Origin: Gemmataceae bacterium
GTDB taxonomy: Bacteria; Planctomycetota; Planctomycetia; Gemmatales; Gemmataceae
Assembly (NCBI GenBank): GCA_009691845.1
Contig: SIAJ01000001.1
Span: 62,001 to 126,000, forward strand
Reading direction: 5' to 3'
DNA length: 64,000 nt
Below, piece by piece: positions 47,175-48,950 of this stretch. Each line of letters opens with the position of its first letter. The first letter of the stretch is position 1. The notes under the pieces are model-generated. The model made no database searches. It worked only from the letters and a program-made list of their open reading frames with translations, and was not told the origin of the DNA. Made by a program: the position numbers and the translations under genes.

Positions 47175-48950
47175 ATGGCCAAGAAGACGAAAGCACCGGC
47201 AGCCGAGACGCCTCCCGAGGTCGGGGGCGAGTACACCGTCGTTGCGAGGCGATACCGCCCGCAGCAGTTCGCCGAACTCATCGGTCAAGAGTCGGTCGCT
47301 CAGGCGCTCAGGAACGCCATTCAGACCAACCGGGTCGCCCATGCTTATCTGTTCACGGGCGTGCGTGGGGTGGGAAAGACGTCCGTCGCACGAATTTTCG
47401 CGAAGGCCCTTAACTGCGTGAAGGGCCCGTCGCCGACGCCGTGCGATCAATGCGACATCTGCAAGGCCATCGCCGAAGGGCAGGATGTGGATGTTCAGGA
47501 GATCGACGGTGCCAGCAACAACGGTGTCGAGAACGTGCGGATGCTACGCAATAATGTTGCGACGCTTCCGCAGCGTGCGAAGTACAAGATCTACATCATC
47601 GACGAAGTTCACATGCTCTCGGCTGGTGCGTTCAATGCCTTGCTAAAAACGCTCGAAGAGCCGCCCAAGCACGTCAAATTCTTCTTCGCCACGACGAATG
47701 TGGAGAAGATCCCTCTGACGATCCTGTCCCGCTGTCAACGATTCGACTTCGGCGGGATCAACACGGGCCGAATCGTCGAGCATTTGAAGACGATCGTCAA
47801 GACCGAGGGAATGCAGGCGGACGAGGAAGCACTCCGAATCGTGGCCAGGCGGGCGGGCGGTTCGATGCGTGACGCCCAGTCGCTGTTGGAACAACTGCTC
47901 TCCTTCGGCAGCGTGAAACTGACGGCCGATGCCGTGCATCAGATTCTGGGCACGGCGGCCGACGAGCGGGTCGTCGAGATCGCGGCCGCGGTACTGGCCA
48001 AGGACGCCACCAAGGCCCTGGGTCTGGTCGCGAAGTGTGCCGACGAAGGCTTGCAGATCGGCGAGCTGCTCGATCAACTTGTCGACTACTGGCGTGGCCT
48101 GATGTTGCTGAACTGCTCGGGGGGCGAGGTCGGCGAATTGAACGTGGCCGACCACCATCGCGAGACCGTGAAGGAACAGGCCCGAGCACTGACGCTCGAC
48201 ACGATCCTGGCCGGGATCGACATTTTGACTTCGACCAAGAACCGACTCCGGAATACCAGCCACGGACAAGTGTTGCTCGAGATGGCCGTCGTCCGTTTGA
48301 GCCGGCTGGATGATCTCGTGCCGATTTCGCAGCTAAGCCAGTGGCTCAGCCAGCCCGGTTCGGCCCCGGCTCAATCCCCCCGACCCGGGGTGACGAGTTC
48401 AGTCGTTTCCCTTGCCGACCAATCAAAAAAAAACGGCTTAGCGACGCCCAGTGAGGGCTTCCGGCCTGGGGTGAATGGCTCAAATTCTGGTCCGGAAACG
48501 CGATCAATCATCCTCGATCTGTCGGACGCAAATCTCTACGAGGTATGGAATAAAGTCAAATCATCTGCCGGTATAATGTTGTCTGGACAGGTCAGTCGTG
48601 CATCCGTCCCTGCAATTATTGGGCCAAAAACTCTGGTTCTAAGGTTTCCAGCAGAGTACAATCACGCTTTCGAGTACTGCAAGGATCCGAAGCAGAGCGT
48701 GATTCTTGAGCGTTCCTTGCGGGAGATCACGGGGCAGGAATGGTCGGTCCGCTTCGAAAAGGCGGAACTATCGGTTGCCGTGGCGACAGTAGCCCCGCCG
48801 AAAAGTGGACGCGATCGGCAACAGCAGGCACTCTCGACACCCTTGCTCGCTCGCATTGTGAGTCATCTGGAAGGCCGGTTGCTGAAACTCGACGAGGGTT
48901 TTGGCGAGGACTCGCCGGACGACGAGCCAGAGGTCGAGCCTGAAGCGTAA
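47175..48950 (+). CDS. dnaX: DNA polymerase III subunit gamma/tau
   Basis: Clamp-loader ATPase, 591 residues. Walker A GVRGVGKTS (62-70), the four-Cys zinc module within CPTPCDQCDIC (about 88-98), Walker B IIDEVHML and sensor SRC (TILSRCQRFDF) are present, with domain III to about residue 360. The tail after about 420 is the tau-specific part. Position 48425-48433 is nine A residues in frame (codons TCA AAA AAA AAC), an ideal slippage site that can yield a short gamma (see findings). The last codons and the stop lie in a repeat. Followed by ybaB and recR, the classic dnaX-ybaB-recR set. Confidence 0.97.
   Translation: MAKKTKAPAAETPPEVGGEYTVVARRYRPQQFAELIGQESVAQALRNAIQTNRVAHAYLFTGVRGVGKTSVARIFAKALNCVKGPSPTPCDQCDICKAIAEGQDVDVQEIDGASNNGVENVRMLRNNVATLPQRAKYKIYIIDEVHMLSAGAFNALLKTLEEPPKHVKFFFATTNVEKIPLTILSRCQRFDFGGINTGRIVEHLKTIVKTEGMQADEEALRIVARRAGGSMRDAQSLLEQLLSFGSVKLTADAVHQILGTAADERVVEIAAAVLAKDATKALGLVAKCADEGLQIGELLDQLVDYWRGLMLLNCSGGEVGELNVADHHRETVKEQARALTLDTILAGIDILTSTKNRLRNTSHGQVLLEMAVVRLSRLDDLVPISQLSQWLSQPGSAPAQSPRPGVTSSVVSLADQSKKNGLATPSEGFRPGVNGSNSGPETRSIILDLSDANLYEVWNKVKSSAGIMLSGQVSRASVPAIIGPKTLVLRFPAEYNHAFEYCKDPKQSVILERSLREITGQEWSVRFEKAELSVAVATVAPPKSGRDRQQQALSTPLLARIVSHLEGRLLKLDEGFGEDSPDDEPEVEPEA
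48425..48433 (+). promoter_or_regulatory. A9 slippage site in dnaX
   Basis: Nine consecutive A residues at codons 417-420 of dnaX, at the junction of the ATPase core and the tau tail. One extra A gives RLSDAQ then a stop (TGA); one fewer A gives a TAG stop within a few codons. Thermus thermophilus dnaX uses transcriptional slippage on a run of A in the same way to make gamma. Confidence 0.7.

Follow-up and report, generated by a model that had tools for sequence, protein, structure and literature searches.

In most dnaX genes sampled from the class Planctomycetia, the segment linking the clamp-loader core to the tau tail contains a run of nine or more A residues with stop codons close behind it in the shifted frames, and comparison of these genes indicates that slippage very probably allows these bacteria to make two clamp-loader subunits, one short and one long, from a single gene. 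The starting point was a 64,000-nucleotide stretch of DNA from a member of the Gemmataceae (referred to as the window), the dnaX gene of which contains a run of nine As (A9). We are highly confident, on the strength of the comparison, that this run is a functional frame-transition site. It is also likely, at a lower level of confidence, that the frame transition is mainly transcriptional and of the Thermus type. The run, where it lies, its conservation in the class at the level of nucleotides and the stops that guard both shifted frames are direct observations, from which we infer that slippage takes place in vivo, that it is transcriptional in nature, and what gamma:tau ratio results.

The dnaX gene of the window and its A9 run

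The positions of the dnaX gene and its features are listed in Table 1. The gene matches the profile TIGR02397 with 451 bits (E 2.7e-135 in a profile search with a cut-off of 250), and in its product Pfam identifies the domains DNA_pol3_delta2, DNAX_ATPase_lid and DNA_pol3_gamma3. It is followed by ORFs that are ybaB-, recR- and rpoN-like, as named from their translations alone. An AlphaFold model of the protein, built with 19 sequences and having a mean pLDDT of 81.6, is confident for the core up to residue 392 and folded again over residues 454-529, where the tail resembles PF20964 (DnaX_C; E=9e-4) with a score of 19.6 bits that is under the family cut-off of 26.2.

Table 1. Features of dnaX in the window, with positions counted from the first nucleotide of the 64,000.
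Feature	Position	Strand	Basis and remarks
dnaX, zero frame; tau-like DnaX, 591 aa	47175..48950	+	ORF; TIGR02397 match; Pfam domains
Clamp-loader core (AAA+ ATPase, lid, domain III), aa 1-392	47175..48350	+	Pfam and AlphaFold; common to both predicted products
Disordered linker, aa 396-443, containing the A9	48360..48503	+	AlphaFold pLDDT < 50
A9 slippery run, TCA AAA AAA AAC = S417 K418 K419 N420	48425..48433	+	Sequence
TAG, closing the frame read with 8 As or +2 nt	48439..48441	+	Sequence; predicted gamma of 421 aa, ending SKKTA
TGA, closing the frame read with 10 As or after a -1 ribosomal shift	48452..48454	+	Sequence; predicted gamma of 426 aa, ending SKKKRLSDAQ
Tau C-terminal domain, aa 454-529, absent from the predicted short product	48534..48761	+	PF20964 similarity; AlphaFold fold

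A preliminary description of this DNA had reported the A9 in dnaX, and the sequence confirms it at 48425-48433, where it is the sole A9 or T9 of the window. The run is part of the open tau frame and lies past the core and ahead of the tail, but it is not located exactly where the ATPase core ends: domain III extends to residue 386 (Pfam) and the last core helix covers residues 384-392 (AlphaFold), whereas the run occupies codons 417-420 of 591, in the middle of the linker and about 31 residues past domain III. The zero frame is open through tau, so that core and tail are read in one frame. Near stops are present in both shifted frames, and the earlier statement that a slip in either direction would lead within a few codons to a stop, and to a product of about 420 residues, agrees with the predicted lengths of 421 aa (TAG) and 426 aa (TGA).

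Taken by itself, the A9 carries little weight: when the 64-kb window was shuffled 100 times with dinucleotides preserved, 29 of the shuffles also contained one (mean 0.44). A pattern search of the whole genome returned 15 A/T runs of at least nine nucleotides in 5.71 Mb, and for a gene that encodes this protein with the codon usage of dnaX itself, the probability of containing an A9 at any position is about 0.015. The decisive test of the A9 is its conservation, and it is the comparison with other dnaX genes that makes the evidence for it strong.

Conservation of the run across the Planctomycetia

The dnaX genes compared came from 90 Gemmataceae genomes (89 of which reach the junction between core and tail), from seven members of f2, which is the only other family sampled within the order of the Gemmataceae, and from 60 members of other families of the class; a further sample comprised 40 genes from other classes of the phylum and 80 named loci. 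At least nine As were present at the dnaX junction in 77 of the 89 Gemmataceae and in 52 of the 60 members of other families, and in none of the seven f2 genes. The junction run is thus found in 129 of 156 dnaX genes of the class and in 17 of the 18 families sampled, and the conservation in close relatives that had been set beforehand as a check on the run is borne out both within the family and beyond it. Within these genes, 128 runs of at least nine As are located in 28.0 kb of junction sequence versus 2 in the remaining 246.6 kb of coding sequence; these two, although outside the scored junction, are linker runs too.

The conserved runs consist of 9 or 10 As, with one A11 in the class set, and all three codon phases (0, 1 and 2) are used. 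They encode 22 different peptides, always with two or three lysines, and the positions that flank them are only 27-58% conserved. AAA makes up only 41% of the lysine codons elsewhere in the run-bearing genes. Under synonymous resampling 10.8 runs would be expected, and 129 were observed. Since the encoded peptides, the phase and the flanks all vary while the runs are so far in excess of this expectation, the constraint is one that acts on the As as nucleotides and not on the amino acids.

Stop codons in the shifted frames

The distance from the run to the next stop was determined in the 127 genes that have tau in the zero frame, and compared with the distances obtained when the downstream codons were shuffled 400 times. 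In the frame that is entered with 8 As, a stop followed after a mean of 6.5 codons as compared to 25.2 in the shuffled sequences (lowest shuffle 19.4), and in the frame entered with 10 As after a mean of 4.3 codons as compared to 21.2 (lowest shuffle 17.6). Both frames were closed within 12 codons in 84% of the genes versus 15% upon shuffling. When redundancy was reduced by keeping 70 genes from clusters below 75% core identity, the means were 7.6 (8 As) and 3.9 codons (10 As), against 24.2 and 21.3 for the shuffles. Individually, the 10-A frame has a stop within 12 codons in 125 of 128 genes and the 8-A frame in 111 of 128; in 11 of the 127 genes, over 20 codons pass in the 8-A frame before a stop is reached.

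Insertions made during transcription of bacterial A/T runs are mostly of one nucleotide (+1), and they increase with the length of the run (PMC5574713). The tighter guarding of the 10-A frame matches transcriptional slippage dominated by +1 events, although ribosomes shifting by -1 would enter this frame too; the guarding of the second (8-A) frame, however, is left unexplained by a mechanism that is purely ribosomal and -1. The close stops in both frames, in combination with the counts of 77 out of 89 and 52 out of 60, lend support to the preliminary proposal that a gamma-like product is formed by slippage as in Thermus.

Genes with the reversed layout

In eight dnaX genes from other classes of the phylum it is gamma that is encoded in the zero frame, with A10 in L281 and L283-L286 and A7 in L282, L290 and L291. 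Gamma terminates in these genes no more than 10 codons after the run begins, and one extra base opens a further 167-224 codons that match tau tails with E-values from 1e-11 to 7e-3, the match being weak in some. The same reversed layout was observed within the Gemmataceae for L079 (A8) and L081 (A10), with tau-tail matches of E=6e-39 and 6e-26, respectively, and these two are probably mirror-image genes within the family. L079 differs by one A from its neighbours, and an assembly (homopolymer) error is possible there. Mirror-image genes need a frame transition to make tau at all, and they are the best available indirect sign that the site is used. A mirror-image dnaX gene may be mis-annotated as frameshifted, and dnaX genes of this phylum that look frameshifted may be intact.

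Mechanism of the frame transition

We propose that the A9 is a programmed frame-transition site through which two clamp-loader subunits would be obtained from one dnaX gene. RNA polymerase would slip on the run and thereby produce mRNAs with 9 (or 9+3n) As next to mRNAs with other numbers of As. The former would be read through to the 591-aa tau, and the latter would direct the ribosome to the TAG or TGA within 2 to 6 codons, resulting in a gamma of 421-426 aa that is predicted to keep domains I-III and to be devoid of the tail domain. Slippage at the level of transcription is favoured because both shifted frames are guarded, the run of 9-11 As can be in any phase, no hairpin is found, both tRNA-Lys species are present and AAC follows most of the runs.

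An alternative that we regard as unlikely is programmed -1 ribosomal frameshifting, in which the mRNA would be uniform and a slip on A_AAA_AAA or A_AAA_AAC would lead to the TGA and hence to the 426-aa gamma only. The required heptamers do exist, as the window run includes an in-frame A_AAA_AAC and every run of at least nine As also contains an in-frame A_AAA_AAA that -1 shifting could use, and the frame that matches is the one guarded more tightly. SD-like motifs are mildly enriched upstream of the runs across the set (12% versus 3% background), and AAG follows the run in 34 of 129 genes. Moreover, an A7 with a GC-rich stem and a stop in the -1 frame, as found in the g26/g35 genes considered below, suggests that cassettes of this kind do arise in the family. 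However, we detected no stem-loop downstream of the window run (z +0.29 over 100 nt and +1.2 over 55 nt) and on average no hairpin signal across the genes with nine or more As (mean z -0.2), the mean z for the 45 nt downstream of the run in 129 genes being -0.36 as compared to -1.7 for the E. coli control. An SD-like motif about 10 nt upstream of the window run is lacking in TTCCCTTGCCGACCAATC. The genome also encodes tRNA-Lys with both anticodons, TTT and CTT, so that the CUU species is present besides UUU, whereas E. coli, with its efficient A_AAA_AAG slip site, has a single tRNA-Lys anticodon (PMC5009743). Lastly, under -1 frameshifting there would be no need for guarding the other frame.

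The guarding of both frames would be accommodated by ribosomes that slide on poly(A), slipping out of frame either way on successive AAA codons of a homogeneous mRNA. This is nevertheless very improbable, since a minimum of 11 As was required for sliding in a cell-free system from E. coli (PMC4363877), and the conserved length is only 9-10 As with a single A11. We attach equally little credence to the view that a lysine-rich linker is kept for the sake of the protein, with the A-run and the stops as by-products and tau as the only product. Two or three lysines are indeed always encoded and some relatives live without the run, but the As remain constant while peptides and phase vary, resampling does not approach the observed number of runs, and neither the enrichment of stops in both frames nor the mirror-image genes would be expected.

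Exceptions and history of the run

The run is absent in about 13% of the class members and in all seven f2 genes, and the slippage route to gamma therefore seems to be dispensable. In the seven genes of f2, a sister family of the Gemmataceae (L172-L178), the junction contains no stretch of even five As, and their linker has few lysines, which points to a clade-wide loss inside a class that otherwise keeps the run. The dnaX genes of the Gemmataceae genera g26 and g35 (L082-L086 and L088) have only A7, followed by G, and a near stop in the -1 frame only. A GC-rich stem located a few bases downstream of the A7 is kept in all six of these genes (z -0.9 to -3.2), and among 13 pairs of this stem examined for covariation none had changed on both sides. 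It looks as if slippage has been replaced in g26/g35 by a ribosomal frameshift cassette composed of the A7 and the stem. The window is without a cassette of this type.

On a tree of dnaX cores with 226 tips, none of them a Thermus sequence, the state of the run changes 22 times versus at least 53 times with shuffled labels; the Gemmata sequence L092 is placed within the Gemmataceae on this tree. The run occurs throughout the class and has been lost sporadically. Outside the phylum, runs of A9-A10 were observed at the single loci L103 (Verrucomicrobia) and L133 (Ignavibacteria), and most of the other phyla sampled lack the run. Outside the class, L105, L120 and L154 (Phycisphaerae/Phycisphaerales) have A9-A10 at the same dnaX junction. 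The preliminary description had considered a mechanism either shared or convergent with that of Thermus. Because of the absence from most phyla sampled and the roughly 22 state changes, on a tree without a Thermus sequence, recurrent origin fits better and appears likelier than common descent with Thermus, which fits less well. We tentatively suggest that the gamma/tau system of the Planctomycetota may be an old, maintained slippage switch that was turned over several times, with gamma made by slippage, tau made by slippage, an A7-plus-stem frameshift cassette in one Gemmataceae subclade, and outright loss as its outcomes. If true, the phylum would offer a natural series for the swapping of recoding mechanisms while two clamp-loader forms stay.

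An A10 was also encountered in the same genome as the window, in the linker between the 3-keto-disaccharide hydrolase and ThuA domains of a fusion gene (L265:556-2271, minus strand; G000:C102), in which both shifted frames stop within 10 codons; this may be incidental. It was considered as a second slippage case and dropped, the only other fusion, L353, being without a run.

It has long been debated whether bacteria need gamma as a subunit of its own. That a class of bacteria keeps a mutation-prone A9-A10, and stops that guard it, in a gene essential for replication is strong evidence from evolution for the value of a short DnaX, and the repeated losses of the run represent natural controls. 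The slippage mechanism as such is known. In the open-licence literature we found no earlier report of dnaX slippage or transcriptional slippage in Planctomycetes or Gemmata, and within that literature the class-wide planctomycete trait appears unreported. Transcriptional slippage in dnaX, so far described for Thermus and some scattered lineages, would thereby be extended to a large clade with cultured members, such as Gemmata.

Comparison with known systems

In Escherichia coli, dnaX is subject to -1 ribosomal frameshifting on A_AAA_AAG with an upstream SD sequence and a stem-loop, and in Caulobacter a short form of DnaX arises by proteolysis. The window gene resembles E. coli dnaX in that one gene would specify two products and in that an A-rich slip site lies in the linker past domain III. 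It is unlike E. coli dnaX in being without a hairpin or an upstream SD-like motif, in having AAC after the run and a longer homopolymer, in the guarding of both shifted frames, and in the presence of tRNA-Lys CUU in the genome.

For dnaX of Thermus thermophilus, transcriptional slippage on an A9 was described by Larsen et al. 2000 (as cited in PMC1088944, PMC4320859 and PMC5009743), the stops for gamma being 2 and 16 codons downstream of the slippery run (PMC4320859). As far as these citing accounts describe the system, it differs from the present one in that the window belongs to an unrelated phylum, in that the run floats between 9 and 11 As with a varying phase and is conserved class-wide, and in that slippage is here deduced by comparison alone. 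Common to both, on the same accounts, are the late position of an A9 that is read in the zero frame of tau, nearby stops in the other two frames, and a short product of gamma size.

Two-ORF dnaX genes with poly-A, in which tau is made by a frame transition, were reported by Antonov et al. 2013 (PMC3711429) and include those of Chlorobi. Unlike these, the window gene has tau in the zero frame, and slippage would make the short product. The poly-A at the gamma/tau junction is nevertheless shared with them, and their arrangement, with the tau tail in another frame than the core, recurs in L281-L286, L290, L291, L079 and L081, of which L281 and L283-L286 share the layout with an A10.
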